A model generated the notes under the pieces. It worked only from the letters and a program-made list of their open reading frames with translations. It did not search any database and was not told the DNA's origin. A stretch of DNA of 64,000 nucleotides, taken from Ptychodera flava. Lineage: Eukaryota; Hemichordata; Enteropneusta; Ptychoderidae. Each line of letters begins with the position of its first letter. The first letter of the stretch is position 1. The DNA is taken from assembly GCF_041260155.1 (NCBI RefSeq), contig NC_091932.1:3867501-3931500 (forward strand). The letters run 5' to 3'. This document shows positions 891-49,675 of the stretch, piece by piece. The position numbers were made by a program, and so were the translations under genes.

Positions 891-3464
891 ATGGGTAAGA
901 CAACATTCAATGGCAAACACGAAACAAATCTGAGAGATTGTCCTCCCAAATGACATGATAAATAATTTTCTAAATGTTGGTAAGCAAACTTCCCACATTT
1001 GTTACAGAATGTTTTAGCAATCCACACAGAAAGCAAAGGACAGTACTAAGTCTTAATCAGCAACCTACACTTTAAGGCTGAATTTTGCCATAAAGCAATG
1101 AGTTGCATAAAACAGATTATGGGGAATTTCTACATGATGTATCTCCTAAATATGGGAACAGCCATTTCCCTTATTGTATTTGTCCCACATCTTTACCTAC
1201 AGCATTGTAAAGAAAATGATGATTCTTTTACATAGGATTTCTTTGCTAAGCCTGATGGGATACTTCTATCATAGTGAAAGATATCAAACGATGTACCTAC
1301 TTGGGGTGAGACACAATATCCTACCATATTGTTAAAATTTCTGATTTTGCATAATTTAGAAATCTTGTAATGATCACACAAAGTCAATTCCTTACAAGAT
1401 ATTGTTGTATGGTCACAGTGAAAATGAGAACGAGGGACATAACTGTGTTTGCAATGCATAGGTATAGTGAGGACAGAGTATAAATTGTATATTATAAATT
1501 ATAGTCTTCACTTCATCGATGTCATAGATGATGATAGCATACACAGTGACAGGATAGAGTCTATGATCTTGCAACATTATTTTGATTGATTTCCTGGTAG
1601 ATGTTATCTATTTTATCCATTATACTGATTCATGCTTGGTTGTTGCAAATCGCAATTCTGTTTTCATTTCTCTCTACGTGTAAGTCGTGTGTGATCAAAG
1701 TCATGATATGATGCATCACAGTGATATTCAAATTTAAAAACTGTCACATTGTCACTTGAAATAATTAAGACCAAAATAACAGTACCGGTAGAAGATGGTG
1801 ACATATTGAGATAAATGAAGAGACGAAGCAAAAGATTATTTCCAAATAGGAAAGATGCATTGCATATCACATATACGTGGTGTTGATTCAACAATAACCA
1901 CTGAAGAAGACATTGAGAAATTTATAAATCTATGTGCAAGTTGTTACATCCGACTCTAAATCAATCAAAACAATGTAAAAAGAGATACGATATGATGCCA
2001 CAAAATCTTTCTCAGACACTCATTGATACTAAAATAGTCTACTGGCTATTTTGTGCCGAACAATACCAAAAATATTAAAAATATAAAATGCGCACACTGT
2101 ATTTTGCATATGGCATTATTGAAATGTGATGATATTTGGATAATAGGTAGCAAATTATGTCTCCACATTCTTGTACAGTATACCACTACTACAGCGCAAC
2201 CAGGTGATTATACAACAATGGATCTTATACAGAATAATTAAACATGACTCAACATATCCTACAAGACTGTCAGATTTTACTCATGTTTTCTTTGTGAACA
2301 CTTTAAAGTATATTTAAGTCAATAGTTCAATATTCTATCTTTGAAAGACTAAATGTCATGGCGATACAATCATTATGAAGCTGAAGGATGTTTTCGTGAC
2401 TTGAATGACCTTCCCATCTGGTATTTCACTTTCAAATTTCAAACTACAGTGAATGGATAGTGAATGACAATGGAAAAGTAATTCAGAATTCCTACAAAAT
2501 GCAAAAACCCATTGACAGTTAATGGCTGTTACTGGGTGTTCAATCAAACTATGAGACTCATAACACTGAAATACTACTATGTGAAGTCTTGTAAGGGTCC
2601 TATAATGGATAATATTTTATGACTTTGTATGATTTCGTTACACTATTTATGAATTGTGAACGACACCACCGGCAATGCTGTACCGGTATGTCAATGTTAT
2701 GTTGTACACTGTTTGTCATAACATGATAAACCTTATATGGTTAACTTTTCATTACAAATGTGCAAAAATTACATCTATGAAAGCATGAAGACTATATAAT
2801 ACTGGAACAGTCATTTTTGGAATTAACTTCATCAAAAAATGATAAAACAATACAATATTACTATGAAGGCTGTTGATTGGATCAAATCAACAATTTTTAA
2901 ACATAATAACAAAGTTGGAACAACACAAAAAATGCTCAGAAAATGATAAATTGAAGACGTTTGCTGAATTTATTTCAAATGTGTGTGGGATACATATGCA
3001 CCAAAGAGACCACGCTGAAATAACTTTTCAGGCAAGAAATGCCATGAAAGAACATTCTATATGACCACTACATAGCATTACATAGCTTCTTAATCATGTT
3101 GCAATGTTGCAATTCTCTGAACAAAGAAAACTATGGCAGTTTCTTGATCAATTGAAATTTATTGCAGAACCTGTCAGATTATTCGTCTCTTTTGAATAAC
3201 ATAAATATTTCACCAAGATTCATGCAGAGATCACATATCTTCATTTATCATTGTGAGTTTATTGGTATGTAAAACAGTCTGATGGTCTAAACTATATTTG
3301 ATAAACTTGAGAGTTATACACTCTCATTATTCCAAGCTCACATTAGATGACTTGTCTACTCTAGTCTCTGTGGTTCAGTCAAACTCTTTTCATTGTTGGA
3401 TATACAGATAACAACTGCATCTGTCATGATGTAGTTTTTGATAAAGTGCCGACGACATATTAAA

Positions 3465-3905
3465 GCCGCACTTTTCAATCCCAGGTTCTCGCATTAGTGG
3501 AGTTCTCCTCCCAGTCAACACATGGCCAGTACGATGTTTGATTTCTATTACATTAATTACACAAACTGATTTCAATCTTTTGTCACCTTTTGCTAATCCT
3601 GCAAATAGAGCTTATATAACCGTTTGATTGACGGTCGGTTTCAAATTGCCAACGGTCATTTATTCCCAGCACCACATTCGAATTTCCTTAAAACGTCTTC
3701 CAGTCACGTTAGAATTTGAATATAACCACTGAGTTCGATCGGCAGCAGCTTCGGGCTGGCCGCTTGGCAGTCTGTCAGCGTTTTTGCGTCCGGGGAACAC
3801 TAAAAAGTGGCATTTTCTGGAGCGTGTGCCCTCATGTTGCCTGTTTGGTGTCCACTTACACAATGAATGCCGCCATAGGTTGGCACCCTTTTAAAGGGAG
3901 GCTCC
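3465..3905. repeat. Interspersed repeat, copy A
   Basis: This about 440-bp segment shares its start (GGTTCTCGCATTA, then GAGTTCTCCTCC) with 7760-7811, and its later parts with 12574-12660 and 14050-14130 (TGGAGCGTG, ACAATGAATGCC). It is a dispersed repeat with two copies in this window. The second copy is longer and is interrupted by the foldback element at 7816-12556. The family is not recognised. Confidence 0.65.
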
Positions 3906-5801
3906 GCCTTTAAAATTAAAAACAGTAACAGAGAATGGTAATCAGTAAGAAACAAGAAGCAAACTGAACATAACTGCTTTTCAATCAATGACGTTTGCAA
4001 TCAGATTTCATTCACTCAAAGGTTGTGAAGCAAATATTTCATAAATGTCAAACCTTGATTGGAAGAAACATTTGGACAGAGTTGATTGTAGAGTAAGACT
4101 TGGACGTATTGACTCAATAATTTGAGTTGAGACATTATTGAATCTTTGTGGATACACTCTATGTACACAATCACTATCCTTGTTTCAATCTGGTGTTCTT
4201 AAAATCACATGATTATGGACATAACCTGAACACAACACTGAAAAATTAGAACACACATGGCACTGTAGGCTTGATAAACTAAAAATTCAAATAACTATAG
4301 GAAGGACCACCCACACATCATTATTGAAATGTACAACAAACCAGCCATTATCTTATGGAAACACTTAGACTGAGTTGATGATATACAAAATTACTTCGTC
4401 AAAATCATAGAAAATGGCAGATAGCACTTTTTTTAAATGAATATTCTGAATAAAATAATTTTCAAATTAAGTTGAATTCTGAGTTTTTGAAATTAATTAA
4501 ATTATTCTGATGGCCATAAAATTGTAGCGATTTGTTAGGAATGTTAACTTTTTGACAGAAATATCAGAATGACCTTAATTAATGAGACTCTTGATAATGG
4601 AATTTTAATAGTTTCAATTTAATGCAGCATCTAACTTACTACATACAAATATCCGCTGAATCTAAAAAATTACAAATACTCCATGCATTTCCATAATAGC
4701 TATACTGTGGGCTACCTCACAGATCTTACCAAAACAATTATCACTCTATCAAAATATTTCAATAATATATTCTACACATTAAAAATTTCAAATATGTACA
4801 TATAAATCAGCATAAAATTCATCTAAATCTGTTGAAATATTTAAGTACAACTACTTGGATATGAGTTGAGAGTAATAGCATATTAGAAATTACCATCATA
4901 TGTTAATCAAATCATATGTTACCATAAAAATCATTTAAGTTTAATCTCCAAATCAATAAAGTGTCACATTGTAGTCAGGTATAACATTTTGTCACATTAA
5001 TGTGTCCAATATTTCACATTAAACACAGTTTGTGGATGAAACTTGATCTACAGAAATCAATGCGCCTTGGAGATCAACACACATTTACATAAAGATGCAA
5101 TTATTCCAGGCAACAGTACTTTTATTTCATTCTGACAATTTCAATAATTGTAGATTCATTTTAACAACAGAAAGTGGAAAGGAATTCAGATCTGGGTAGA
5201 TTATGCAGAACACAATTCACTGAAACCTGCAAAATGAATGATATTTGCATTTTAAAGATAGCTGTCTAATTTACATGTTGCTATGGAAAGTTTACACAGT
5301 GGTTGTCACAACAGGATTACAGGTCAATAGTGAATATCTGTTGGACTCTGGAAATCTGTTGGACTGTGGCAGATATCACAGACATGCTATAGAATACTGA
5401 GATAAAAACTTGAAGAAATCTCATCTAAATTACATTTTACTGCTATGCAAATGCTCAAAATGATAGCACACGGTCATAATAGTGTATCGATGTACATATA
5501 GAAATGTGGAATGACTGTAACAATTGTAGATACTACACAGGTCTGATATGCACTGCCTGTGTTCAATATGACTATTCACAGAGTCATAACAATCTCAAAT
5601 ATTGTGATTTACTTTCATTGAATTCACTTCACCATAGCCCCTAACATTTTGCCGTCTCATATCAGTTTACACTTAAAAGGCACAAAATCTTTGTTTTGAA
5701 GATAGATATTTCAAATACAAGACTGTACTAAAGACTGTAATATGCATGAATGCTGTGTCTAATGAAATACTGTCAATCATAAGTTTATATGAACTTATAC
5801 A

Positions 5802-5845: not shown

Positions 5846-6436
5846 GTAGTGCATTTAGATCATCTACTTTGTTTTTAAAAGGTTGCTTAATTTATTTATT
5901 ATGGGAATTTCTATTTTCTTTGAATAACTCTACTTTAAATTGGCTGTACACTTTTGCATAGGTAATGTATAGTTGCAATAAGAGCTGTAACTTGGCAGGG
6001 ATTAAAATGCTAGCGCCCTCATACACATTTAGTTTCTTTCACTTTGTTCTTTTAATTTGAATTGTTCTTGAGAGTACATGTTGTCAAAAGAGTAAATACT
6101 CTTATTTCCATTGATCAATGTAAAACACTGACATTCTAGGCACTTCATTATCCAACACATTTTGGTTTATCCTAAAATATGGGGATGTTATGACCATTAA
6201 ATGTTCAATGGAGCAAACACAGTATATCCAATGTAAAACTTGATCCTATGGGCTCCAGACATTAAACAATGAATATATTAAACATTAACCTACAACAAAG
6301 GGATAGAGTCGGTTTGCTATCCAGAAACTCCTCAAAAACAAACAGCTTAAACCATATTGATCAAGTACCGGTATAAGATGTGTATGAAATACCACACTAC
6401 TGTACAAAATTGAATCTTGGATGTTCTTGCTTGTTG

Positions 6437-7815: not shown

Positions 7816-7960
7816 TATGTGAGAGGTCAGAAATCGATAGTCTGCGCCCCCAATCTGCGCTAGCGCATTCCAATCTGCGCTATCAATCTGCGCTACCAAT
7901 CTGCGCTCCCATTCTCCGCTATCAATCTGCGCTACCATTCTGCGCTCTCGAACTCTCAGG
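7816..7960. repeat. Left inverted arm of foldback element
   Basis: It contains repeats of AATCTGCGCTATC and variants (CATTCTCCGCTATC, CATTCTGCGCT) and is the reverse complement of 12405-12556. The units are about 13 bp and pair into 26-bp higher-order units. Confidence 0.85.
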
Positions 7961-8820
7961 GTACAGATCATGGAGTGAGTAGAATTCAAAGAATATCCAA
8001 GGTAAAAGAGACAACATATTACATTATTGTTTTGAAAACTTGTATTTTTGTCCATTATTTTTTTCCCGAACGACTTTGCTCAAACTGTTAACTTTGTGGT
8101 AGATGGTTTGTTGCGTTATATGTGTCCGCACAGTAGGTCAACCTAATGTCCCCAAATAAAAATACATGGGTGAATGCAAGTGTTTTCACTGGCTAACTAA
8201 TTTTTCTCACTAAGATCTGCTTTACCTCAGTCAGAAAAGATCGGACTGAACAGTTTCCGAGTTTGCCGAATCGGCACAAGATCTTGCTGAGACACGCGAA
8301 GACCAAATTTGACTGTCGTGTCTGTTTTCAAAAATATCTTTGCACAGACGTATGCATGAACTGTGTTCAGAAAGGTAGAACACTGCAGGACTACACTGTG
8401 GTCACTGAAAAACTAGAATTGTCATTGTGGAACAAAAAACAAAATTAAATGTCATCGTTGACGTGTCATTATGTTAAAAATCCAGTTCCAAAAATGACTG
8501 TAATAAGTCACCAAAGTATCGGGAAAGTCAACTGCACAACCTAACCGATCGGGTATTTCCCCATGAAGGAGCGACTTTGCACAATTTTTAAATATTGGTT
8601 ATTTACTGTCCAGTATCGAAGTTTGACGTCCCATATATTTCTGTTATAGATAGATATATATTTCTGTTATAGATAACAGACTTGGAATATATGTTGAGTC
8701 CCATATCAATACTAGACGTCACCACAACGACGTACCTTGTATCTGGGCACGCTGGGTCTGCGTGATCGTCGATTATCCGATTTTTATCGGCGATGTTGGG
8801 ACTCTAATACCGAGACTACA

Positions 8821-9130
8821 CTTGTCAAATCGCTGGTAATTCTATTCGATAAATATCTGAGATTTCACCCATGAATAGATCTGGCTCAGCTCGGCGTTGT
8901 CAGTCTAACTCTAACTTTGATACAAGCACTGTACGAAAAGTCACATTTGTCATATGCTTTACCTGGGTGATACAAGACTTGTCAAAACGCAGGTAAGTAT
9001 ATCCAATGTAGGTGCTACTGGAGATTTCATGCTGGTTCAGCCCGACGTCGTCAGTCTGATTTCATTTACAATACTAGACAATACTAAAGACTTGTCAAAT
9101 CACGGGTATTTCCCCTCTTCTAATATCCGA
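8821..9130. repeat. Degenerate internal repeats of the foldback element
   Basis: The motif CTTGTCAAATCGC..GGTA recurs at 8821, 8978 and 9091. Between copies lie similar segments (GAGATTTCA, CTGGCTCAGCTCGGCGTTGTCAG and its variant at 9030-9055). This is an internal array with uneven spacing (157 and 113 bp). No protein coding is evident. Confidence 0.5.
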
Positions 9131-9199
9131 TATATCGAAGATTTCCCCTCTTCCTCATATCTGACTCAACAATCCTAATTTCCTGAAAATATCCGATAT

Positions 9200-12100
9200 C
9201 ACATAAAAGTGCAATGTCGCAGTATCCTAGTGTCTACTGTCTATACCGCTGAGCATGACGTCGTCGTCGGTAAGATATGATTCCAGGTTTCTGGTGGATT
9301 AGAGCATACATGTATACTGCTGCATATGCGGCTTTGTTTGACCAGGAAACATGACGAGATACGACAGTTCTAAATTACCATGAGGGATACCTCTTCTGTT
9401 TTTAGCTCCATGGTATTACACAGCATCGTCTTTCCACAGTTTGTCGAGGGACAGTGTCAAAAGTTATGACAGAGGGACCGTGATACAAATTGTAAAAGTT
9501 CTCAGAAACTCATGTCGATGCGATGTGCAATGATGACCAGATGCTTTTACAGACCCAGCAAGCTGAAGAACTAAATTCGGGACTATCTCTATCAGTTTTA
9601 AGCTACTGATCTTCACAGCAACAAGCGTTCGTAGGCAAATAAATAACGTCAAGAACTTTTGGGATAGACGCTAGTCGACGTAGTATTCTTGTGAACGTCC
9701 TTGAACAAGAACCGCGACCTTTATTTTTGATGCGTTCCGTTGTGAAAGAATTCATAAATGTATCGAAATATACAAATTCACGTGACTGAACTAGTTTCGT
9801 GGTTGGTACAATTTAGCTATTCGAGGTTTTGGGGGTCAAAGATAAGCATTACGTAAATGATTCTATTTTGTCGAGATGGTGAAACATCACCTGCTGTACC
9901 TTCTGTTCTGAATAGAACCGCCGGTTTCCATGGTGACCATGCGACGTCTGGGCTGTTGCCCGATTTTCCCAGCGGGTTTCTAATACATGTAGTAACTGAC
10001 TCTCTTGCTCCATTGCTAGTATTGTTGAAAAAGGGGATCAGATGTACGAATCTCTCTTTTATAAAATCCTTGACAAAGACTACCAGCTGTTTTCTTGTAT
10101 GTACGTTTCACTTCGCAAACGGGCTCAATTTGAAAATTAAAAGCTAAACACCAAGGGTGTAAAACATTTTAGTGGGCACTCTCGCCGTACTACCAGCGGT
10201 AGCGAAGACAAATTACATGGCATCCTTGTATGATTGCCTCGTGTGCACGCACTGTTGACAGTACAGTGGTCATGACTTTCTCTACCGCGAGTTCCACATA
10301 TTGTCCATTTAGGCCCTATATGTAATATTTCACGCAGGTGCCTGGCTGAAGGGGCTTCGCTACACTTCAGCGAGATTTTTCCAATCATAACGTAGTCAAA
10401 GGGGGTCTTTTTAAATCTCCATGTTTTAAAATAAATCGTTTGCCTTAAAGTTGCTCTCTATTTTCGAATTGAACGTGCCCTGTCGCGCAACCGTTTTCCT
10501 TGATATAAGGTTGTAGCTAGTATTGGTAAAAAGACGTCAAGTGCAATCGCCCAAAACGCAGAGATATGTTTTGGCTAGAGTTGGATATTTCGTCTTCACA
10601 TCAGTAGAAAAGTTTGCAGTAATCTCGAACGAATCTATTTAGTTTTCACCACTCAAATTAACTGTTTTATGGGCTTAGCTACTGTAATAGTGATAGTTGG
10701 GTTGAAAATGAGCTGATAGAGATGCTCAGCTTGTGAAATTATTGAAATTACGGGGACATGCTCGTGAGGGATTGTGACTAGAGAAAGATTTACGAACTGA
10801 CCATTGTTTACAAGAGTGGAACTTCAATCGCAATGTTTGTGCTTGTTAGTTCAATCGTTCCGTATGAATATGGTTTCAACAATCGAAAGAGAAGGAGCAC
10901 ATGCATTTATGAGAGAGTGTGTGTCTATGGAATTATAGTACGTAATTTATTATCTTTGCAGACGTGACACCACCTTGCCTTGATTATATCAGGACAGGTT
11001 GACGCGGTGACAAGGGAGTACATTGTCGTTTCTGACCTCCTCGCATGATATAAACATAAAGCTAGAACGGATGTCATAATTTGTTGATCAATGCCATCTA
11101 CGATCATACATGAAAACAAGGGAGCAGCATTGAAAGTGCCACAAAAGTTATGCAGTTTTAGTCGTGGGTCGTCCTTGTGGACAATTGAAAAAATTATTTA
11201 CAGCTCGAACCAACCACTGAAGTTGAAATGACTGGTACAAATCAGAGTGTTCCAAGTCACGGGCATTCACTTCTTGCATGATAGGACTACATGTAAATCG
11301 CCTTCTTGTTATCATGTGCAAATCTTGAAAATCGCAAACATCTCGAGAAAATATATCTATCATTGTTTTTACTTGTCTTCTGCGATGTGTTATGGCATCA
11401 ACTTACCTAATCGTCACCGTCATAGTATCAGTTTTCTTCGACATCACATCTCTCAGATCAGTGATGTCATCTTTATTTGAGAAATTCATTGAAACCTCAA
11501 TCTGAGTCAAACTCACAAGGTCAGCACACGGTCAGAGACAATATTTATTGTGACAGGCCAGGCATCGTATTGCGTTATGTGAAACAGAAAGACATGATTT
11601 ACATTTCCCTTCACGATTTTCGCGATTTTGTGCACAATTACTGTGAATTATTTACTTCCTGATCAGTACATAAACAGATAGCCATTGTGTCACGTCATCT
11701 ACAGGTCACCGACCGCACACGCGTGTATTCAGTAGCTTGACGTCACTGGACGTAACTTGCCAATCATCATAAAGGACATTGCGAACAGGCTAACGTCAGA
11801 ATTGTCGGGCTCAAACGTTTCTCTGAACATGAACAGAAATGCTCAATATCGACAGAAAAATCGTAAAAAAGTTTTTAATAGTGACGGTAACCCAGACCAA
11901 AAGTTTGTATCCACTTGCGCTTCCGTTGGCCATCCTACAAACTGCTTCAATCAATGTCGCAAGGTTGCTGCAGTGCTGGTAGCAAGCCCTGCCACTGCAC
12001 TCCCTCTGCTGTGCGTTGTTGGGCTGTCGACTAAGTCGTCGTTGACTTGTAGCAAGGTCTACCATAATTGTAAGCGTACTTGACTTTGCGCTTACTACAT

Positions 12101-12400
12101 GTACTTGATCATTTCTCAAGCTTTTTATATGAGAAAGAAAATTCATCGAATGTCTTCTTCATAGCCCTAGGATCCATGAGACTATAACTTTATGTCGCGC
12201 TTGATTCGGAATTGCATTCGATCGTACATAACATTACTCAATAACTAGTCTTCCTGACACTCGGTATGCTGTACAAGTGTCGGTATGCTGTACAAAAATA
12301 CAAATCTATTTCAACACTAGACCATGCCATGTATCATCTAGCGGGCAGCTATATCGCGGCAATGTCATAAATGCCACCGTAATGACTAAAATCAAAACAT
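9200..12400. other. Foldback element interior, nothing coding recognised
   Basis: Frames here are at most about 110 codons, overlap on both strands and match no recognised domain. The sequence has many CG dinucleotides compared with its surroundings. Two 18-bp copies of TCGGTATGCTGTACAA lie side by side near 12260-12292. Nothing else can be supported. Confidence 0.5.
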
Positions 12401-12404
12401 TCAT

Positions 12405-12556
12405 GGATCGATAGCGGAGAATGGTAGCGCAGATTGATAGCGGAGAATGGTAGCGCAGATTGATAGCGCAGAACGGTAGCGCAGATTGATAGCGCAGATT
12501 GAAATGCGCTAGCGCAGATTGGGGGCGCAGACTGTCGATTTCTGAACTCTCACATA
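12405..12556. repeat. Right inverted arm of foldback element
   Basis: Successive units read AGATTGATAGCGG, AGAATGGTAGCGC, AGATTGATAGCGC and AGAACGGTAGCGC, ending in GGGGGCGCAGACTG and CTCTCACATA. This is the inverse of the left arm. The 13-bp units alternate in type, making 26-bp pairs. Confidence 0.85.
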
Positions 12557-14580: not shown

Positions 14581-15020
14581 AGAGGGAGGGGAAAGCAGCG
14601 TGGCTGATAGAACTTGATGAGAAATAAAATGCCTCACTTAGAGGGCAGCAATGTTCCAAGGTATACTGCTAACTGCTCGCATGGTTTTGCGTTGATCTGG
14701 GTTGCCCAGTGGGCATCTACTAGTTGGCAATGGGGGTTTCAGTAGTGGGGAGAGGGCAGCGGGGCGTTTGAATTGTTGTGGGGAGCAGGCAGACTGTAGA
14801 TAACGGAGGGCAGTGGGCATCAAAATTCACTGGGAGGACACATTTTCAGTGTATGCCAGTGGAACTTGAAGGGTAGTTACGAACAGCTCTACTTTCCCCT
14901 CAAAATTTTAGGTCAAGGTCAAAAATAAGAAAAATCGGTATATCAACCTTCAAAACATGTTTTGTGATGATTTTGCGAAAGTCATGAACTTTACCAGTTG
15001 GCGGCACCTGCATAGGCCTA

Positions 15021-16080
15021 CACTCAGTGTGACAGTTTTCGGACAGGGTTGTGAATTTCGCCCAAATTCGTTTCGTAAATGACCAGCAATACGAAATCTT
15101 ATTACCATACATTTCGAAACTTTATTGTGGTTATCCTCAAACTCAGTTGACACGACGGGAGTGGTATTTCGGGGCCAAAGTTTTGACCCCATGTTGAAGG
15201 CGTAATAATCGGACTGCAATCCCAGAAATCGGAGGTCGTGTTTTGAATGTGATTAGGAGCTAAGTATTGATAATTTGAACTTCAAACCACCAATTTTTAA
15301 TTTCGATGTGTTTAGAAAACTGTATATAAGAATATTTCGTGATAATTAGTTATGTTTAATCCATGGACGACTCAACTATATTTCGACGTGTATAGCGCTA
15401 GATATCGGACATAGGCTGCCTCTGTGTGTGTTGCTTTCGGCACCTTTTATCGTACGGTGTGGCTAACGTCGCTAAGTTTGTTCAGTGAGTATTACTTATA
15501 ATTGTTTCCATTGCATATTTTGTTTGTATTAGAATCGCACAGGCATTATTTAATAAAAATAGCGAGTATATTTCATCGTATGACATTATTTACCTGTCAA
15601 GTTTTTACGCGGTAAGTCACTTACTACGTTTACACAATTATGCTAAATATTGTCTGTCCGAAAACTTGTACACTTCTTACATTCATTGCGCAGTTTTCGT
15701 TAAAAAACTACATGCAGATCGTAGCGAACAATGGAAATAATATTTTCAAAATCATTATTCTCCCCCACATTCAAAATTCAATGCTAAATAAGGACTTTAG
15801 TCAAAATTTCAGTTACTTTGACCTGACGGCAGTATGTTGACAGTATCACTGACGCGGTGTCAGACGACAATTTGTGACCGCCGCTAGCCGCTCATAGCGA
15901 ACTCAATAGCTTCTGCCAAAAAAACTATCGAAAACGGGACAACAGTGTCACCTGACTTAATATGAGGTCACATGATCTGTAAATCGCTATCGATACGGAG
16001 CGAAGTGAGTGTGGTGTAACTAACAGCATGTCACTAAATGTCCGAAAACTGAGGTCGTCCGAAAACTGTCACACTGAGTG
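15021..16080. mobile_element. Non-autonomous TA-flanked DNA transposon, 1060 bp
   Basis: The ends are perfect 24-bp inverted repeats. The left begins CACTCAGTGTGACAGTTTTC and the right ends in its complement, GAAAACTGTCACACTGAGTG. TA lies directly outside both ends (15019-15020 and 16081-16082), the target duplication of the Tc1/mariner group. A second copy of TGTCCGAAAACTG lies just inside the right end. No transposase frame is present, so this is a deleted derivative. Perfect ends suggest recent activity. Confidence 0.8.
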
Positions 16081-16083
16081 TAT

Positions 16084-19654: not shown

Positions 19655-21352
19655 TGGCGGCCGGCGGCTCCACGCTCAATGTTTATGGAACGCGATCGAC
19701 GGGTTTGAACAAAACCCCAAAACAGTCATGTATACAGCTTTGCGTTAGGCCCTACTAGTAAAGATTCATTTTCGCGGAGTTCATGGGTGCGTATAAATCT
19801 GATTATCTGACATCTGTACCGAGCCGTTTTCTGGTTTGTAAGTCTTATTTGTCTTAGGGCCATGCAGATGTATGGGTCCTATACATGCACCTTGCGTGAT
19901 GGCGTATACAGACAGAGCACAACTTGTTCAAGCCTTGTAATTTTATGCGAAGAAGATAACTAAGGCAATAAAACATATATCAAGGATCAGCAAGCCTTTC
20001 CTAGTGTCTCTATAATTTTGAATTGTATGACTTTAAAATTATATACCTTTTCATTGTCATTCGTAGTATTTCCGCTACTTACTGTTCACGCCCACGAACT
20101 ATGAAAGTGTTTTATGCTGAATTTATATGACACAAGAACGAACAAGAGAAAAGAAAGATTAATAATAATCTGACATCTTAGAATGTGATCATGGCAGCGG
20201 ATTTTATTGGGTATCCTTCTCTGAACAGACAGACAAACAACACAACACAACACAACCAAAATAATATTCTACATACCGTGTCATGAAATTTGTGACTGGG
20301 GTCTCTGACAGACTTGCCATATATTTTTTGAAGAGATCAAATGTCGGAAGAACAATAATATAACTGAATAAATGTAATATGAAGAAATCGGTAGGCATAA
20401 TCTCTGAATCAATTGATATAGGGGAACCAAGCAGTTATAGTATGCATGCTTGTAAAAATGTTGCAAGTCGACATCTGGCTTATTGAAAATATAATATTTA
20501 TGGGGTAATGACAGATAAAAAAAATGTGCATATCGGAGGAAAATATGCCGTGATTCACAATAGTTAGATCAGGGAACAAACTCAGAAATTATCACAGTCC
20601 CTCCATCAAAGACTTGATTGTTTAGAAGTTATATTTGTGTATGTTTGTAATATTAAAGCTAAAAAGCATGCCCGTAATTTGTCAAAGTCAGGAGACCATC
20701 ATTTTGAACCGGAAAAATATATAGGGCAATTTTTTTCCTACTGTGAGGGATATAAACCCAAGAACTCCGGCAGTAGTATTTTATTACATGCTCTCCTCAG
20801 TTAACACTATCTGGCATTTAGTTGCATGCGGGGCATTCTCGAACAAGTTTACCATTATTGATCCAAGAAAGATGAATGATCCTATTTGATTTACAGCTTT
20901 CATTTCTTGCTGTTCAAAAGTCTCACACTTAGTGAAGTTTTCATTGAAGAGAAATTGTACCCAACAAAGGGACATACATATGCCTCTTATATTTGGAGGG
21001 ATTGCAGATCACTTTGTCAAAACATCAATCCAACATGATGTTGGATTTGGTCAAGCAAGAAAAATGTGAAACATACATTATCTTGCTAGCTGATAACATT
21101 ACTTGCAGCAATGGGTATCTGTTAGAAAACAAAATTAGGAAACTATAAGATGTGATTGCATGGCTTTTGTGATACAGTCATTGTGAAAGATATGTAGTCC
21201 TCTCTCTGTCTTGAAATCCTGGAAATTTTTTTCAAGTCAACTGTCCAATATAGATAACACAATGTAGACTTTTTCAAAACTCATTCAGTTCATAATTTTG
21301 GTTAGTAATTTTTTCATAAATTGATTTTCATATAATATCTTTCTCATCACAG
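19655..21352. other. Stretch upstream of first recognised exon
   Basis: The first 200 bp, flanking the Harbinger-like element, are CG-rich and the rest is AT-rich. The first recognised exon at 21353 starts in phase 1, so at least one upstream exon with the signal peptide must exist. No candidate could be identified here. Confidence 0.4.
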
Positions 21353-21736
21353 AGCTACTGCCCACAAAACCACGTGGTGAAACAGACATGGTCCTGAAGC
21401 CTGGCTCAATACTGTACATCCAGTCACCAAATTACCCAGCAAATTACCACATCAACTCATGGTGCATATGGAAAGTGACAGCTGAGTCAGGAAAACCAAT
21501 GACCATCAACTTTAGAGATTTCGCAACTGAGAAGGGTTACAATTGGGTAGACATACCGGTAGGTGGAGGCAGTACGTGATGAAACTGACCTGTCAACTGT
21601 TAGCTTTGGCTTTTAGGAATGGATTACATACCACCTTGTGTGACAGACTCTAGCAGTTTGTGTATCACCTTAAGCAGTGATGACACTGTCAACTTCAGAG
21701 GATTTCTACTGTATACCAGTATTGATGAAAGGCACA
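21353..21736 (+). pseudogene. Exon: CUB 1, frameshifted
   Basis: The acceptor TCATCACAG opens in phase 1 and the donor GTGAGT follows at 21737. The frame reads ELLPTKPRGETD, then IQSPNYPANYH and CIWKV, a CUB first half, and NFRDFATEKGYNWVDI. After DI the octamer TACCGGTA (21554-21561) adds codons Pro-Val compared with paralogues (VDIG). The frame is then lost. DETDLSTVSFGF appears in one frame and SDDTVNFRGFLLYTSI in another, so at least two frameshifts are present. The closest relative in the window is the exon at 54722-55090 (ELL..., DETDLTT). Confidence 0.8.
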
Positions 21737-22040
21737 GTGAGTAGTGCATGTATTCCTAGTTGTGATACAGTCATGATCTTTTGAAAAGTGAAAGGATTTG
21801 TACTTAGTTACAAAAATATGTATTCCAATATTTTGGTATTTACCTTGTACTCCTTTTGTCACCAAAGTTTGTCTGACCTAATTCTCTTTTAACAAAATGA
21901 AAAGACATGCATAATGCAAGACTGATAACATACAACATAAAGAGATTAAGTGCAATTGATATGCTTTAAAATCCAAATTGTAACTATGGCAGAGATTAAG
22001 AGTTATTGAAATTTGGTCAAAATTTATTCTATCACTGCAG

Positions 22041-22257
22041 CTGATATAAGTGAACCTAAACCAGACCCTACGGCAACTTCCCTGCCACCTCAGCCTTGTG
22101 GACAGCATGTTATTGTTCCTGCCAGTGGCAATGTCAACATCACTGCCCCAAACTACCCTCGTTACTATGACAAAAAACTGAACTGTGAATGGACATTGAA
22201 TTCTACAACAGGAGGGCGAATCATAGTGACTTTTATTGACTTTGAGACAGAGTAAAG
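22041..22257 (+). pseudogene. Exon: linker plus CUB 2 first half, nonsense
   Basis: A phase 1 acceptor leads to a Pro-rich linker (EPKPDPTATSLPPQP), then CGQHVIVPASGNVNITAPNY and CEWTLNSTTGGRIIVTFIDF. The exon ends FETE, stop (TAA at 22253-22255), then AG|GTAAGT. The stop sits where paralogues have an ordinary residue, most simply CAA to TAA. Phase 2 at the end joins correctly to the next exon at 24539. Confidence 0.85.
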
Positions 22258-23817
22258 GTAAGTGACTGATGTGAGTAACTTTTGTAAAAGCTCAGGCAAC
22301 AGACAGCTCATCGTCACTGGCTAATTGTGGCTTGCTGACTGCAATATATGCCTTTTTCATCATCCAGAAATAGTTTGTACTGCCTGGGCTTTGCAGTGAC
22401 AAAGTTAAACATTCAAAGTGTCCATTTATAGAGCTTCAGACATACAAACCCTGTATTTGTCAATATTTATAGATGCCTTTGCTGTAACTGCATAGCACAT
22501 AACAATGGGAAATTCAATATGTCAGTTTCAAGTTATGTGGAAAATACATCCTGTAAGAGATTTTCAACTGTCATCACTACAGGCACTGCTCAAGCACTTT
22601 GTTTGACTGGAAGTGGGGGCTAATTGTATGTTGTGTTACCAGGTGATATGTAAACAGGGACTACAAATAGCCTACTCTTATTGACTGTAACCTGTATTGT
22701 AATGCACTCAGGTGCGATGCAGTTGCAACAAGGCTGTAAAACTTGAAAAATATGCATGGAAGAAACTCACTTTCCACCAGTTCCCTGTCGTGGGTGTGTG
22801 GAGAACATTGACAGTGGAGGGTTTTGTCTATGCAGAGAATGAAATCTTTGTAAAGACAGGTGAATGAGCTGGGTTCACTATACCATACCCATGATGAAGC
22901 TATCCAAACTAAAAAGGAGAAACTTGGCTTCGTCTGTGTAAAAAGGGATCAAATATGAAATCAATAAATCTGCAACATATTATACATTTGAATTTTCTAA
23001 CATTGATCCTGGAAAGCAAATATTTTGGTTTTTAATGGCAAATGTAAGATAAACATGTTGTTACGCCATAAAGCATGGGTTAACCCTTGTCAACGTAAAT
23101 AAATATCAAACATTGTGTTTCATCAAGTATAGCATCTCATACTTGATACAGCAGAAATGATGTAGGGATCTGACTTGATTTTTAAAACATTGGAAAAACA
23201 TCTCTCATTCATGTCAATTTTTCTTACCACTTTGCTTGTAGTATTGTGATCATCAAGCCATGGTCTACAGTGCCATAAATTTTAGCCAAATTTTGGAAAA
23301 ATGTAGGGTTCCCTCATGCGAAGAAGTAAAAAATCTCTGCACTTCCTGGTTACCAACCTTCAAGTACATATACTTGGAAGTGTACATCCGTGCATGGGGA
23401 GTATCTCGAAGTAAGCCAATAGACAACATGAAAAACAGATGAATTTTTGATTTTTGAAAAATTGACAACCATAACATGAAGTGTTGTATGAGTCCAGGAA
23501 TATCTTTCAAAAGTATATGGATACTCCACCATACATCTTATACTAATAAGCTGTAAGGAAGGCATACATGAATATCATTACCTCAACTCTCACTGTGACC
23601 TTTTGATTCATTTCTGTTTGACACAATAACATGATAAATTGATTTTGATCTGTTCATATCAATTTGAAATGCAATGATTTACTTTGAATGTTGCAAGTGT
23701 GCAAATGATGACCAAGCAAGGGGTGTGTGTTGTCATGCTGAATCCAACACAGCGTATTTTGCTCAAAAATCACTTTTTTGTAATATTCATATGTTGTTAA
23801 CCCAAGATTAAAATATT

Positions 23818-28242: not shown

Positions 28243-28654
28243 GTAATTCTCCATGTTCCCTTCGTATGGCTTTTCTTTGATGACAGTCTGATTAGTACAG
28301 TAGTCGGTTTTCAAAGCATTTTTTTCTGAAGTGTTTAAACAAGACAAGAGTGTAACCAACATTTTATGCACATACAGTGTATCCATAAAGTTTATTCTGT
28401 AATATCACCTGTTTAGGTCATTAACATTGTGTATACATTGTATTGTACAAAGTTTTGCAAAGTGTGGTGTTGTCACATGTGACAACAAATCAGACTTATG
28501 TGTGCGTTGGTTTCTGGTGAGCATTTTAATTGTACATTGAACTTTGAGGTAGACAAATATTATTTTCAAGAAATGTTAAAATTCTTGGAACATTATCCAA
28601 CACTTGCTAGGTTCTTCAGAACAGAAAACAAGTTACTAGTAGCTTTCACATTTT

Positions 28655-35040: not shown

Positions 35041-35248
35041 GTCCTGTTGTTTATGAATCTGGCCTTGACTACAAATGTTACAAATGCTAGCGATGAGCCA
35101 TTGCCTTGGGAATAAGCCAGAGAGATCTGTATGGAGACAGTCAATAGTGATCAGGTCATCATACCGGTAGATACAGAGGAATATGAATATCTGCATTTGA
35201 AGACAGATTGGAGTATTGTCAAAAGTGGATTCAATCTGACGTTTGAGT
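35041..35248 (+). pseudogene. Exon: C-type lectin 2 start fused to CUB end
   Basis: The acceptor CCTAATTTAG in phase 1 completes Cys, giving CPVVYESGLDYKCYK, the start of a lectin domain as at 46724. A frameshift follows. SDEPLPWE, stop, AREICMETVNSDQVII matches the lectin SDPKPWDEGREDC region. TACCGGTA (35162-35169) follows VII. The exon then reads EYEYLHLKTDWSIVKSGFNL, which is the end of a CUB (compare RLKTDLTNTKKGFEL at 46400), and leaves in phase 1 at GTGAGT. It looks like a chimera of two exon types. Confidence 0.7.
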
Positions 35249-35302
35249 GTGAGTACATTATCCATCAATGAAAGTTGTCAATGGTTTTGTGTAGATAGAT
35301 TA

Positions 35303-37669: not shown

Positions 37670-38184
37670 CACTATAGGGAAAAAGTGCGTGACTTAGAGC
37701 GAGAAACTGACGCTTTCTCGCAATCGGTGAGAATCTGTTCTTATTCTCACCGCTGTCGGTGAGAAAATTTTAATCTCCACTGGAGATTGGTGAGAAATGC
37801 ACTCCTTGGCGAGAATCAAGTGTTAGAACAAATTCTCACCGGTGAGAATGGAAATTCTCACTAAGTACAGCGAGAATGGAAATTCACTGGCGAGAATCAT
37901 CAAGACTCGCCGTTCATTGGCGAGAATCATAAAGACTCCGAACGGCGAGTCTTGATGATTCTCGCCAGTGAATTTCAATTCTCGCTGTACTTAGTGAGAA
38001 TTTCCATTCTCACCGGTGAGAATTTGTTCTCACACTTGATTCTCGCCAAGGAGTGCATTTCTCACCAATCTCCAGTGGAGATTAAAATTTTCTCACCGAC
38101 AGCGGTGAGAATAAGAAAAGATTCTCACCGATTGCGAGAAAGCGTCAGTTTCTCGCTCTAGTCACGCACTTTTTCCCTATAGTG
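37670..38184. mobile_element. CACTA-ended foldback element, 515 bp
   Basis: The element is one long hairpin with arms of about 240 bp. The ends are CACTATAGGGAAAAAGTGCG and its complement, and ATG is duplicated outside (37667-37669 and 38185-38187). CACTA ends with a 3-bp duplication fit the CACTA/EnSpm group. Each arm carries about ten copies of GGTGAGAAT / GGCGAGAAT in both orientations, like the subterminal motifs of that group. The loop is about 26 bases near 37930. The arms are nearly identical, so the insertion is recent. Confidence 0.85.
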
Positions 38185-38372
38185 ATGTCTGTATATCTGT
38201 ATCTAAGACCCTATTTCTGTCTACCTATCAAGACATATTTTTCCTTGTATCTTTGCTGTGTGGATCATTTAGTGCATGCTAAATTGATCATTGTGTTGAG
38301 TTTCCCATATCAATTTACATCATGTCTGATCATCAGGTGTTCAACTCAAACTCTTTCAATGCTGCATTTTAG

Positions 38373-39869: not shown

Positions 39870-40379
39870 GTAAGAATGACTGTCTAATTAACAATTGCAA
39901 AGTAATCCCAAGTACCCTCTGACAAATTTCATGTTCCAAGGATGCTTTGTACCCATTGTAATTCCCTGGCACCCATTGACAGTTTTCACTTATGCAGGTT
40001 ATACCAAGCAATCCTAAGTACACATTACAATTTCATCTACCCAGGATGTAACTTAGTCTTCCCTAACAAATCTCATGTATCAATGCAGTTTAGATCTGAC
40101 GTTTTATAGGTGCTGTGCTCAGGTCATTTAATACTTTTTTTTAAATCTGAATGATGAATCCTGATGAATCCTGACAAATAAACATTTTTCCATACCAATA
40201 AAAGGATGATGAAAAAGTATGTTAATTTTTCCTCCGTATGTGTTACATACCGGTAGATTTCCAATGTGATAGAGATTGATGTTGTCTCATTAGCTGGAAA
40301 TCCAACATGGAGAAGCTGTGTGGTAAAGTCTTCACAATATTCAGAAAAATATCACAACTGCTTTTATCCTTCAATTCAG

Positions 40380-40535
40380 ATTGCTTTGACAACCTGACCA
40401 TATCGACTGGTGGCACACAGGTAGTGAAGTCACCAAACTATAGTGATGACTATAATGATGATGAATTCTGTGAGTGGCTGGTAGATGCTGACTCCAGCAA
40501 GAATATTCGTGTGCTCATCAAGGATTTCAGAACAG
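40380..40535 (+). CDS. Exon: CUB 8 first half, intact
   Basis: A phase 1 acceptor (CAATTCAG) leads to DCFDNLTISTGGTQVVKSPN, YSDDYNDDEFCEWLVDADSS, then VLIKDFRT. It is open throughout and ends phase 1 at GTATTT. The SPNY..DY and FCEW positions match CUB. Confidence 0.85.
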
Positions 40536-41089
40536 GTATTTTTCATCAGGGTTACTCCATTCCTTACTGAAACAAATACCATAAAACAATAGCACCACCA
40601 ATATCTCTGAACAGTTTACTTTGTGAACACCACAGAGTTGTTCCCAATTACCTTGCAAATGGTTCATAAATTCTTGGTGCCTTCAAACTCAATTTACCCT
40701 TACACAGCAAGTTGTAGTGGACTTAGTAATATCTTGAAGTATCTTCACATGAATTATGTAAATTAAAGTGTTTTGTACTGGAGATAGCTTTCCTATAATC
40801 AAAGGCAAGTCAATTTAGCTTTAGCAAAGACATAGTGCATTTACTGTACATAGGCAAAGACGGTGCAGTATCAGTAAATTAAAAGTAAATGACAGCCATC
40901 ATCTCAACACTTCAACAATACTACTCTCAGTGTTCATTCATATTTATTAAAGCTTCGTGCTTTTCCGATTACTATATGTGTGTGTACTGTGTACTGTGTC
41001 TGTGTGTCGTCTACTCCACGCACACCGTGTTGTTCGGTCGCGCACAGAATTGCAACATCTCAGTCGGTTACTGTGACCAACTCTTTTGG

Positions 41090-42244: not shown

Positions 42245-42486
42245 GTAAGTAGGAACTAATTACCATTGATTAACTAATTGACATAACTGTAGTGATTGCA
42301 CCTCTTGTAATGACTAACAGTCTGAGATATGGCAGGTTCAAATCCTAATGTTGTGACCAGATCTCTCACAACTACAGTCACAGAAGGTGGACAATCGTGT
42401 ATACATTACGTTTACTTTTTTGTACGTCACACAAGTTTTGTAGATAACATTGTAGATATAAGAACCAACTCTTTTGAGTGTTTGTA

Positions 42487-43985
42487 CCCTTACGAAAATA
42501 GTCTGTAGATATTCTATTGAACTCTGATATTCTATAGAAATTCTGTATATTTTATGGAAATCTGATAGAAATATGCTTCCATTGAAATTCAATTGAAAAT
42601 TTTCAATACAATTCTGTAGAAAAATTTAAATTTTATGAATTTTAATGTGTATAGAAACTTTAAATTCTATTGAAGTTTGCTGATAATTTTCTGTAGAAAA
42701 TCTGCAGAAATTAAACATATTTTTATGGAATTTTTCAGTTCCATAGCTTTTGTGGAAATTTTTTTTCTGTTTTTTTTCCCCACAGTTTACACTGTTTCAG
42801 ACTTAAGTTCATGTTTTTGCATGTTGGCATGAGCTTTGATAAGAACTCAGTGACATATATATAGCTGGTTTCAATATGGAAAAGGTAGTGACATATACCT
42901 ATGGAGAGTTCTAACATTCTCGTGTACCCTTTAATTCTGAAAAGTTATTTTCATTTACACACATGTGCCAGGAAAATGTATACAGTTTCAATTGTACCAT
43001 TCCTTTTGTACATTTCATGACTGTACACAGACCAACCTGACTCTCTTTGTTAGATCCTAGGTCAAGTGAGCTGACCTGTGCCTTTGCTTTGTTATGCAAA
43101 TAGTTTCCTGCCTTTACAATGGGCTGATTACATAATAGTGTAGCCACGCATTATTCCTTTGAACTTGAGGCAGTCCACAGTGCACATGGCTCTTATGAAA
43201 AGTACTAAAGTTCAACTCCAAATTCCATGGAAAATTAGGATCCAAGGTCCATTAGCAAGATTCTAACAGTGTTATGGAGAAGGGAGCTCACTAATATGTC
43301 ACAACTGTAAGGATCCACATTGCAGCATCAACTGAAAATTACGTGAGTTAAGGTACACAACACTTTAATTATGCACTTGGCTGAGTTGACAACTCAAAAC
43401 TGCTAGACTGGAGAGGTAGGCCAGCTTGCATTCATATGTGTAGGTTGCTTTATATTTTGTAGTCCCTGTATGTTTCATCAAGTTTCGAACGATTGTTAAT
43501 CATAATTCTTTTAGAAATAAACTACATGTTTATAATTTACTTGCTGCCTGATTTTTTGTGAGTTTTTGCAGTAATTCATTGCATTGGTATCTATGGCAAT
43601 ATCATAAGGTGGTACTCCTTACTTAATAAAAGTTTAACACATATTGTTGTCATACTTTCTAAGAGATTGAACTCGTATAAGACAAACAAACTTCTGTAAA
43701 AGAGTGCAGAAATTAAATATAGTTCTACAGAATTCTACATAAAAATTCTGTAGAATGTGGTATAAATTCAATATAGTGCTACAGATATTCTGTAGAACGT
43801 GTATCGAATTTACATAGAAATTCTGTAAATTCTACAGAAATGATACAGAAATTCTGTTGAATTTCTACAGAAAAAGGGGGCCTTTCCATAAAGGTTCAGT
43901 AGAATTTCTGTAGAAATTCTGTATCACTTTAATTGAATTTTGTCATCAATTTCAATAGAATTTCTACAGAAAATTTTCATAAGGG
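42487..43985. mobile_element. TA-flanked non-autonomous element, 1.5 kb
   Basis: Inverted ends: CCCTTACGAAAATAGTCTGT on the left, complement of CCCTTATGAAAATTTTCTGT on the right, alignable for over 30 bp. TA sits on both sides (42485-42486 and 43986-43987). The terminal 250-300 bp on each side are packed with TTCTGTAGAAATTC-type motifs in both orientations. The middle carries no transposase. It fits a Tc1/mariner-type deletion derivative and lies inside the intron of CUB 9. Confidence 0.75.
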
Positions 43986-44019
43986 TATAGAATACACAAG
44001 GGAAGTGCTAAGTTACTTA

Positions 44020-45410
44020 AGCCAGGGTTACACGTACATTTGTATATTTTTTAAAGCCAGAGGGGATCCGATTAGTCACTCTGTAAATATTCGTTATCAG
44101 TGATCTAATCGATCTCACGTTTACACGTCAATCAGCAAGGTATAAATTTAGTTCAGTCAAGCGCCCTCAGCGGTATTAACTGGGCCACAGAATGACTGCT
44201 AGCCGGCAATGCCGGACACAAACATCGGACAGCTGCTGTCTATGCTGTTTTTGTTTTCAATCAACCCATAAAGACTCCTTCGGCGAAGACATTTACAAGA
44301 AGAAGAGAATTTTGATGGCTTTACCCCGCCTAATGTCGATATCCATTCCACTTAAAGATTGATGAGTCGCCGTCGAAGAAGACGATCAAGTTAATGTTTC
44401 CTTTTTCTCATCAAAGGGCCACTCTATCAACTTTTGTAACACCATATAGGTCCTGCTGCATCTCACCACAAGCTTTCCCACAAAAACAAAACACAATTGT
44501 ACGTATTAAAATAAACTTCCCTACACATATCCTAAATGAAAACAAACACTATTGTAACATGTAGGGATCCTACTTCACACATATCCAAAATGAAACAAAC
44601 ACCACAGTCACCTGTGGTCTATTCCGCTCTGCATCTATGCGCCCCATGGTACATATGCCTGAGAAGAAGCACGTCTATGGGGCACATAGACGCAGAGCGG
44701 AATAGACCACAGGTGACTGTGCAAACGCCCATGCAGCACAAATTTTTGGATAGTAAGGTGGGGAGCCTTTTCACATTCACACTTTTGTACATCTCGTCGT
44801 AAAATGGCATCGTTTTTCCTACCACTGCCACTATGACGGTTATTGTCGGACACAGTTTTGAATTGGGCTCACAACCATTCGATTTTATTGTGACATTACT
44901 CTGTGTTTCTCTCGAGTCACTTCTCCCTAGCCCTGGCAGCGATGACCTCATAAACTTGCCTATGCCTTGCCCACAGACGTATAAAAAGATATTTTACGTC
45001 CATGCCTCGATGTGTCGTCCATCATACTGATGACGTTTTCATCTCTCCAGGTGGAAATGAGTAGTGTGATTTCATCATGGGACCAAATGTTGCCGGGTTC
45101 GCGTGAACTTTTCGCTTTGTGCATTCTTTGTGCATGTTGTGGTACTGGTAATGGCCGCAAGCCTGAAGACAAGATATTAATTAAGTTAGGCATTTAGTTC
45201 GGCGTTCTGATCACACGTGTAAATAGGCCATTGTTTGGTACGGAGCGCCAAGCCTGAACCAGCCCTCCGACACCGAATTAATTTAGTTCTTTTTTAGTTT
45301 GGTGTTATCTGGTCACACGTCCAACTGACACAGGTTTAAATTAAATCCAGTGTCAGCTCCGCAGTAAACACGCACATGTAAACCTCACTTTATAGAGTTG
45401 ATTTAGAGAC
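44020..45410. other. CG-rich intronic block, possible insert
   Basis: The block starts near CAGGGTTACACGTACATTTG and ends near CACATGTAAACCTCACTT, which are weakly inverse to each other. CG dinucleotides are common compared with the flanks. A 45-55 bp segment (ACACATATCCTAAATGAAA) is duplicated at 44525 and 44578. It may be an old DNA transposon; ends and duplication are not firm. No coding exon is seen. Confidence 0.4.
44603..44721. repeat. Hairpin with ~45-bp arms
   Basis: CACAGTCACCTGTGGTCTAT through GCGCCCCA pairs with TGGGGCACATAGACGCAGAG through CAGGTGACTGTG, with a few mismatches. The loop is about 27 bases. Confidence 0.85.
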
Positions 45411-46341
45411 TGAATTAATTAGGACAGCACTTTGGCTTGACTACAATGTATGCAGGTATGCCATTCTGTTTTTATGGACATGCATGAATAAACAATGGAG
45501 TGGAGTGTCACTTAGACATCTCCCTCTGCCAGAGACAAGTTTTACTTCTTCGTAAATGCATGCCTTTAAACTTTTACACCACACAAATCAAAGTGAAGAT
45601 ATTAAGAAATACGAAACTGAAATTAAATATCGGTATATCATTCAATTACAATGTTTCAGTCATTCCATTCTCTGTTTATCCATGTGTCTTGCAAAAAAAC
45701 GGATCAGCATCATTCTGCACTCATTGTACATATACCATGTTTCATCTACCCAGAGTGTTGATGTATTAACCAGCAGCAAACTCTTCAGATATCATCAACA
45801 TGGTAAGTATTTCAGTACCACACTTGTGTGTTCTATCGAAACATTCAAATGAATCGGTTCTTCTTAATTGCAATGTTATCTACAAAACTTGTGTGCAACG
45901 TACAAAAAAAATTGTCCACCTTCCGTGACTGTAGTTGTATCTTTCTGTCCGAGTTTGATCTCTGCGATTGTGTTTCATACTTCGCCATTGATTGTTTGTC
46001 AAATATTGGATATGTGGATGAGTTCTTTGGACTTAAGATAAATATGTTAACAACCTCTCTTACTTGCCATCACCATTTGTTTTAGTTTTCTGTTCAAAAT
46101 TTCATTAGCTACTGACAGAAATGTAATTATATGAGTTTAGATAGAGTTTTAGTGTGTTCTCATTTGCCCCATTCAGTATATGAAATATTGAATCCTCACA
46201 GATTGCACCATATCATTTCCTTCAATACTGAAGTAGTTTGAGGTCAGTGGGCATGTTGTAGGAAGAAATACCGGTATGTATGTAGGGCATGGCCACTTAG
46301 TCTCCCTAAAACTAGATCTTTAAATTTTCTGTCACCTGTAG

Positions 46342-46466
46342 GAGTACACCGGCAACAGACTTCCAGATGATTACATCAGTGAATCACATCCAAGGATGGA
46401 TTAGATTAAAGACTGATCTGACCAACACAAAGAAAGGATTTGAACTTACCTATGAAGTGTTTGAAT
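46342..46466 (+). pseudogene. Exon: CUB 9 end, frameshifted
   Basis: A phase 0 acceptor (CACCTGTAG) leads to EYTGNRLPDDYIS. A shift follows, then NHIQGWIRLKTDLTNTKKGF and ELTYEVFE in another frame, and the first base of a Cys codon at GTAAGT (phase 1). It is the partner of the exon at 42030 across a 4.1-kb intron filled by two inserts. Confidence 0.8.
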
Positions 46467-46906: not shown

Positions 46907-47250
46907 GTCAGTGTCCCTCTGTGGCGTGAACACTGAATTAATTTTGTTTTCATCAAAGATTTTAATGATGCAAATGCAGTCCTGTTTAGCACATTTATAG
47001 GAACTTCAAATCTTTCTTAGCCATTGATCATGAAAGAGTTACCCAGTCTGACTGCTTTGAATCATCAATTTCTTCCATAAGTACTTTTTGTAGCAAAAGA
47101 GGGCTGTTTTTTTATTATTTCTAAATAAACTGTTTAACAGGATACAAAGGTATTACTATCATATCAATGTCAACAAGTACCGGTACTAATGTGATAACCA
47201 GGGATTTACGATTGTTGCTTCAACTATGTACCATATCATGGGTACAACAA

Positions 47251-48720: not shown

Positions 48721-48900
48721 GTTACTCAGACATTGCTGAGAGAAGTCAGTGGGTGTGGGTAGACTGCTCACCATCCTCTGGTTGGCATGATGACAACCCA
48801 GTGGTGACGGCAGATATGTAGCTCTGGACTATGGTGAATGGAATGCCCTGATGTGTACAGACATGCATCCATTTATTTGTGAGATCACAAAGAAACATAA
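48721..48900 (+). pseudogene. Exon: C-type lectin 4 second half, frameshifted
   Basis: The acceptor CATGTTAG in phase 1 completes Gly: YSDIAERSQWVWVDCSPSSG, WHDDNP. One base appears lost near 48802. SGDGRYVALDYGEWNALMCT and DMHPFICEI then continue in another frame, the classic WNA..C....PFICE lectin end. The Cys expected before VAL is Tyr. The donor region (CATAA|GTGAAG) is eroded compared with CATAAAA|GTAAGT at 29048. Confidence 0.85.
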
Positions 48901-49352
48901 GTGAAGTACCTTCTCTTATTGATGGTAAGAAAACAAACAAATTTCACAGACTTTTTATCATGTTGCATTCAAATGAAGATTGTATCTCAAACCTCTGAAT
49001 TTAGTACAGCTTTATTTAAAGGCAAAATTTTACCTTGAAGAAAAAGATTATAGGGACGCTGGAAGCAGGCAGAAACTCCGTAATCAGCATGAACTTGTTG
49101 ACTTTGTTTGAAAGTATAATTCAGGGTTTGTTAGCACACTATGATCAACTGAATGTTGCTGGACATAAGCTTTCAAAGACGTATAGTCTCTTTCATCAGA
49201 TGCAAGATTTAAACCTTTGCATTTGATGAAGGAGACTATTATATTGTTTTGAAGATCAACATGCCTATATTCAATTTGTCTTTTGTTTGAAAATGGAATT
49301 TAAGTGTTTGCATGCATTGTTCACACCTCATCTCTTTTTTTTATTTTGACAG

Positions 49353-49675
49353 CTTTCAGTGCCTCTGATGTGAATGTAGAGGCAGTCTACCGTATGGCAC
49401 AGCACTCTCCCCATACAGTATCTCTGTCTCATGGGACATCCCACAGTCACTACATTACTGTGACATTGCTGGCTACAAAGTGAGAGATACCACAAAAGGG
49501 ACATTGCTGGAGGAGTCAGAGTGATCAATGTGGAAGGTGGTACATCAGACTACACAGAGATAGAAGGGTTGAAACCATCAACACTGTACTACATCTACCG
49601 GTATGTTGCTACTGTCACTATTCATTCAAACCCAGATGGATTAAGTACCGGGAGATCCTGTCACGACACATGAAG
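49353..49675 (+). pseudogene. Exon: fibronectin type III 2, three frameshifts
   Basis: The acceptor TTTTGACAG in phase 1 leads to FSASDVNVEAV. In successive frames come SVSWDIPQSLHYCDIAGYKV, RVINVEGGTSDYTEIEGLKP, STLYYIY and VATVTIHSNPDGL. TACCGGTA (49596-49603) adds Arg-Tyr between IY and VA relative to the intact paralogue (MMYIAAYT at 29569). It ends GDPVTTHE|GTAAGT, phase 1. It is the equivalent of the intact FN3 exon in the first cassette. Confidence 0.8.

Follow-up and report, generated by a model that had tools for sequence, protein, structure and literature searches.

What could have placed the same palindromic octamer, TACCGGTA, at nine sites of a single locus, three of them inside decayed exons? 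The locus in question lies in the genome of the acorn worm Ptychodera flava (assembly GCF_041260155.1, contig NC_091932.1, positions 3,867,501 to 3,931,500), and the whole stretch of 64,000 nt that was scanned, here called the window, contains nine exact copies, or one per 7 kb. By the word's own definition, all nine read TA-CCGG-TA, with a TA on either side of a short insert. The best single explanation, which we regard as evenly poised between right and wrong, is that each octamer may be the excision scar of a TA-inserting, Tc1/mariner-like element with CC or CCGG ends. An earlier note on this DNA had proposed such an origin, and it is now supported because the flanking bases display a target-site preference and one element of the predicted kind is present in the window.

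Enrichment of the octamer

The over-representation of TACCGGTA in the window is confirmed. The GC content is 37%, and CpG stands at 0.52 of expectation, in agreement with the depletion that the earlier note had allowed for. Markov models of orders 1, 2 and 3 predict 0.22, 0.31 and 0.47 copies, respectively; the mean over 100 dinucleotide shuffles was 0.24, and no shuffle held more than 2. The earlier estimate of fewer than one expected copy in 64 kb is therefore sound (0.2-0.5), and the comparison with shuffles, suggested for the whole genome, yields a clear excess within the window. The Poisson tail at order 3 is 2e-9, or about 1e-4 when multiplied by all 65,536 octamers. With repeats masked, TACCGGTA was the top-ranked octamer at all three Markov orders, with seven of the nine copies left and two hidden by this mask because the octamer sites share up to 14 bp; under a milder mask, restricted to repeated 20-mers and tandem arrays, all nine copies remained. 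The excess is also strict: the 22 single-base neighbours that are not CpG transitions total 7 occurrences against 7.0-11.1 expected, while the two CpG-transition forms were seen 7 times against 1.9-3.1 expected.

The copies at 1783-1790, 2681-2688, 6366-6373 and 47178-47185 lie where no exon was recognised, that at 40248-40255 is upstream of a CUB exon (40361-40564), and that at 46269-46276 is upstream of a coding-like stretch (46337-46456); none of these was assigned a strand. The remaining copies are on the + strand inside decayed exons, namely, a CUB exon (21554-21561, read as Ile-Pro-Val), a lectin-like exon (35162-35169, Ile-Pro-Val-Asp) and an FN3-like exon (49596-49603, Tyr-Arg-Tyr). 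Seven of the nine positions given previously are correct, but two, 1793 and 2691, were 10 too high and should read 1783 and 2681.

Bases flanking the octamer

If the octamers mark former insertions, do their flanks resemble insertion sites? The flanks were read outward on both strands, giving 18 half-sites from the nine copies. Position +1 held T in 8, G in 5, C in 5 and A in none; position +2 held G in 7, A in 6, T in 5 and C in none; and position +3 held T in 12, A in 4, G in 2 and C in none. An unbiased information test found these flanks to be non-random (p 0.001 and 0.0014), and an A at -3 or a T at +3 was present in 12 of the 18 half-sites against a background of 0.34 (p 0.0045). Tc1 inserts at the TA within the consensus CAYATATRTG (PMC9635669), and Himar1 has a preference for A at -3 and T at +3 and tends to avoid C at +2 and G at +3 (PMC8525568). 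The likeness to the Himar1/Tc1 preference for A at -3 and T at +3 (PMC8525568, PMC9635669) comes with one difference, namely, that the preference in the window is taken from presumed scars and not from resident insertions.

Under the Tc1 rule with four positions, the flanks of TACCGGTA gave a p value of 0.0002 when compared with all TA sites and of 0.00035 when compared with other TA-N4-TA sites; with three positions the values were 0.0007 and 0.0018, and under the Himar1 rule 0.0011 and 0.0008. All of these are somewhat optimistic, as the rules were chosen after the flanks had been viewed and the sample is 18 half-sites. Controls behaved differently: the Tc1 and Himar1 rules gave 0.34 and 0.86, respectively, at 26 other CG-containing TA-N4-TA sites and 0.13 and 0.73 at 32 other palindromic sites, and the flanks of another frequent palindrome, TACATGTA, showed no target preference (0.47 and 0.26). 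The flanks of TACCGGTA fit the symmetric preference of Tc1/mariner elements for TA insertion.

Two sites, 40248 (+) and 49596 (-), have 14 bp in common (ACATACCGGTAGAT). Beyond about 14 bp, the nine sites are unlike one another and are therefore not copies of one repeat; the mean similarity of their 100-bp flanks was 11.75, compared with 11.99 in 40 random sets.

Octamers within exons

Exons of three kinds, CUB, C-type-lectin-like and FN3-like, form a decayed array on the + strand of the window. Pfam recognised CUB clearly and Lectin_C in the paralogue at 38369, with the paralogue at 46720 just under the curated cut-off. Neither the lectin-like nor the FN3-like fragment that contains an octamer matched a Pfam family, and the FN3 label comes from weak matches, of the paralogue to fn3 (E 0.16) and to fibronectin chains (E 0.08). 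That three octamers sit in decayed exons, as had been claimed, was borne out by a frameshift after 21554, a stop in the exon starting at 35092 and a change of frame between one half of the FN3-like exon and the other.

Any gain of codons at the octamer was judged against paralogues within the window. In the FN3-like exon at 49596, both MAFFT and pairwise alignment place a two-residue gap at the octamer relative to the single paralogue (29691), which agrees with the 6-bp insertion proposed there. A splice-donor reading of the octamer (CCG|GTA) was rejected, as the FN3-like frame runs on through it at 49596. In the CUB exon at 21554, the residues read W-V-D-I-P-V-G-G-G, and the G-x-G motif lies two codons further along than in six CUB paralogues, in which W/K/Y-x-x-I/V is followed directly by G-x-G (in one of them with a stop replacing the first G), although these six were selected by a pattern that itself demands the spacing of I/V and G-x-G. 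The lectin-like exon at 35162 is one codon longer than two lectin paralogues, which have one residue in place of Pro-Val; to this extent the earlier description of that exon is correct.

The decayed exon that contains the latter octamer (35092-35265) resembles a C-type lectin in its first half and the end of a CUB domain in its second, possibly as a result of exon fusion.

A candidate source element

The earlier note had suggested a search for elements with TA duplications and CC ends, and one was found in the window. This candidate source-type element, at 42485-43987 (no strand assigned), is 1503 bp long including the TA at each end, and its inverted tips start with CCC. The tips match at 31 of 36 bases, compared with 6 of 20 outside the TA, and their identity is the best among 3,806 TACC/GGTA pairs lying 80 to 6,000 bp apart; next in rank are foldback arrays and then a pair with 23 of 36 matching tip bases. 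No open frame of 120 codons was detected in the element. At three mismatches, its tip has 11 matches in the window, its own two ends included, against 5.5 expected, and 3 of 100 shuffles reach 11, so that looser tip copies are not much above chance. Six other listed TACC...GGTA pairs were rejected as sources: five are foldback arrays, and 26261-28551 does not extend. The element at 42485-43987 is evidence that the genome has a TA-bounded, CC-ended element, but not that this element made the scars.

A wider pair of TA-bounded inverted tips, CAGTCACAGAAGGT and CAGTCACGGAAGGT, lies 3.6 kb apart at 42373-45933 and encloses the candidate element.

Outside the octamers, the window contains 4 TACCGG and 2 CCGGTA. 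The only facing pair of these within 6 kb (63202-63242) was rejected as an element, as it lies inside a longer hairpin.

A proposed excision origin of the octamer

How could such a scar arise? A cut-and-paste element of the Tc1/mariner kind would insert at a TA and duplicate it; when the element departs, CCGG would stay between the two TA copies, for a net gain of 6 bp. Tc1/mariner transposases cut inside the element on one strand and leave 2- or 3-nt 3' overhangs, and end joining then produces a footprint of the overhang bases plus the duplicated TA (PMC3878927, PMC8151067). Two routes to TACCGGTA can be envisaged. In the first, cleavage at CC ends such as those of the element at 42485-43987 would leave a 2-nt 3' stagger; fill-in of both CC overhangs and joining of the ends would then give TACC + GGTA. 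In the second, CCGG ends would be cut with a 4-nt stagger, as in Minos, and the self-complementary CCGG overhangs would seal as one uniform TACCGGTA scar; this route would best explain the uniformity of the scars. The stagger, and the link between an element of the 42485-43987 type and the scars, are inferred. A possible variant footprint, TACCGTA/TACGGTA, was seen 7 times against 3.0 expected (p 0.033), with flank p values of 0.026 and 0.085.

A number of observations weigh against excision as the origin. Those from the exons come first. In tblastn searches, four of the six CUB paralogues aligned with the 21554 exon, all ungapped to the end of the alignment, and the two-codon shift is therefore a reading of the motif. 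Between W and D-E-T, that exon exceeds its paralogues by 10 nt, of which six can be attributed to the octamer but four fall downstream of it, and the exon requires a further gain of 4 nt. A third match to the 35162 exon (46337-46456) is ungapped, and with a gain of one codon against the other two, a clean 6-bp insertion is unsupported at this site.

The flanks add to these points, beyond the optimism of the p values noted above: a three-site control word, TAGCGCTA, was partly positive (p 0.014 and 0.078), and the CpG-transition forms of TACCGGTA lack the flank preference. As regards the source, no CCGG-ended element was found in the 64-kb window, the element at 42485-43987 is tied to the scars by nothing beyond its end letters, and it is unusual for nine scars to be accompanied by no more than one resident copy in 64 kb. 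The first route should, moreover, yield other products too, but TACCTA/TAGGTA was counted 25 times where 25.3 were expected (flank p 0.20 and 0.16), and TACCCGGGTA is absent from the window. The excision proposal as a whole is partly supported: the enrichment of a strict word, the flank preference, the CC-ended element, the gap at 49596 and the shift at 21554 count in favour, whereas the single extra codon at 35162 and the want of a firmer tie to the element count against.

Alternative explanations

The explanation that best withstands the evidence after excision, although we consider it rather unlikely, is that the genome has many copies of a longer and roughly palindromic site for protein binding (about ACATACCGGTAGAT), of which TACCGGTA is the core, with the exonic copies being incidental. 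The non-random flanks would then be part of the motif, as would the shared sequence of up to 14 bp. Grainyhead-family factors bind palindromic ACCGGT-type sites (PMC3348937), and oomycete promoters carry GTACCGGTA and ATACCGGTAT motifs, albeit in a distant lineage (PMC10031896). Uses of TACCGGTA or of the ACCGGT core in the literature, as far as the matched titles and excerpts go, comprise primers and linkers, the oomycete promoter motif, worm AACCGGTT and Grainyhead sites; no title or abstract among the literature matches listed describes TACCGGTA as a word common in animal genomes or as a scar. The window itself argues against a binding site on three counts: CpG transitions apart, no excess of single-base neighbours is seen, unlike what a degenerate binding site would produce; AACCGGTT, the optimal Grainyhead site, has no copies in the window; and of the three octamers in coding-derived exons, two are at an apparent two-codon gain.

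A second alternative, which we judge improbable, is that another process makes or spreads TACCGGTA, for example very small templated insertions where a TA is broken, or a mini-element of which only the tips are left. It draws on the high count of TA-outer palindromic octamers as a class (37 seen against 20-21 expected), in which the nine copies of TACCGGTA are accompanied by TACATGTA (12 copies, 11 after masking, against about 3 expected), TAGCGCTA (3 against 0.2) and TACTAGTA (3 against 0.6-1.0). The flanks of TACATGTA, however, are free of target preference, and we know of no mechanism that inserts CCGG specifically. For the same want of flank preference, TACATGTA was rejected as a second footprint family in spite of its enrichment.

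It is very improbable that the nine copies are parts of a dispersed repeat or tandem array: such is the case for 12 other highly enriched octamers, which have 62% to 100% of their copies in microsatellites, tandem arrays or hairpins, but the flanks of TACCGGTA are no more similar than random ones and all its copies survive the mask of 20-mers and arrays. Least of all do we favour chance in this window, an unlikely source of the excess even for a word picked out after reading 64 kb, given the Poisson tail after correction for all octamers.

Comparison with known systems

The Minos footprint reportedly consists of the duplicated TA and four terminal bases, and the ends of Minos are said to read CGAG, which is not self-complementary, whereas the four bases in the window scars are CCGG. 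Minos, a Tc1-like element, leaves 6 bp upon excision (PMC10992017), the same gain as that proposed here; unlike for Minos, no transposase was seen in the window. The Sleeping Beauty and Frog Prince footprint, C(A/T)GTA, is likewise composed of TA and overhang-derived terminal bases (PMC3878927), but three bases are retained there and four in the octamer; TAC(A/T)GTA is only mildly in excess in the window (27 counted, 17.9 expected) and has no target preference in its flanks.

Excision of internal eliminated sequences in Paramecium leaves a single TA and no scar. The likeness lies in the removal of short DNA within genes, exons included; in the window, by contrast, no evidence of programmed elimination was seen. 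The cyanobacterial HIP1 is also a short palindrome far above expectation, but it is bacterial and is discussed together with methyltransferases (PMC4390886), whereas the octamer was counted within 64 kb.

Other repeats in the window

Several further repeats were recorded. A TA-bounded inverted repeat of 29 nt (CACTCAGTGTGACAG...) occurs about 1.06 kb apart at 15019-16082 and is perhaps a non-autonomous element of Tc1/mariner type. At 62691-63412, inverted arrays of a 15-nt unit (TATCGGGCGAGTTGG) with ends near TACAGTCAACTCGCAC and GTGCGAGTTGACTGGTA form a foldback-like element, which contains a GC-rich hairpin near 63180-63260. At 7816-12556, inverted arrays of 13-nt units (CCAATCTGCGCTA) are separated by 4.5 kb and may delimit a single large foldback element. 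A nearly perfect long hairpin (37695-38160) has 221-nt arms that are 99% complementary and a 24-nt loop, and a tandem array of 64-nt units with 97% matches is found at 57265-57826. Finally, a 257-codon open frame at 50578-51351 (-) appears to resemble a reverse transcriptase of Penelope type, but had no match in Pfam; a viral-contig scan found no relative. A second such scan was likewise negative, and a 4-kb slice of the window (20001-24000) had no phage match.

Implications

Transposon footprints are usually few and mixed. If the octamers are indeed excision scars, a uniform palindromic scar frequent enough to lead all non-repeat octamers of the window would be a fossil record of past transposition that can be read from sequence alone. 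It would tie the terminal letters of an element, in a way that can be tested, to how faithfully the site is repaired once the element has gone, and why excision was so frequent and so precise would become a question in its own right. A bolder form of this proposal, which we hold to be improbable, is that a TA-inserting transposon family, or a domesticated excisase that acts on it, repeatedly leaves genes with one fixed, in-frame 6-bp palindromic scar, perhaps owing to self-complementary CCGG overhangs. In that case, at one scar per 7 kb the scars would outnumber the resident copies, and the locus would point to near-systematic, possibly programmed, excision in an animal.

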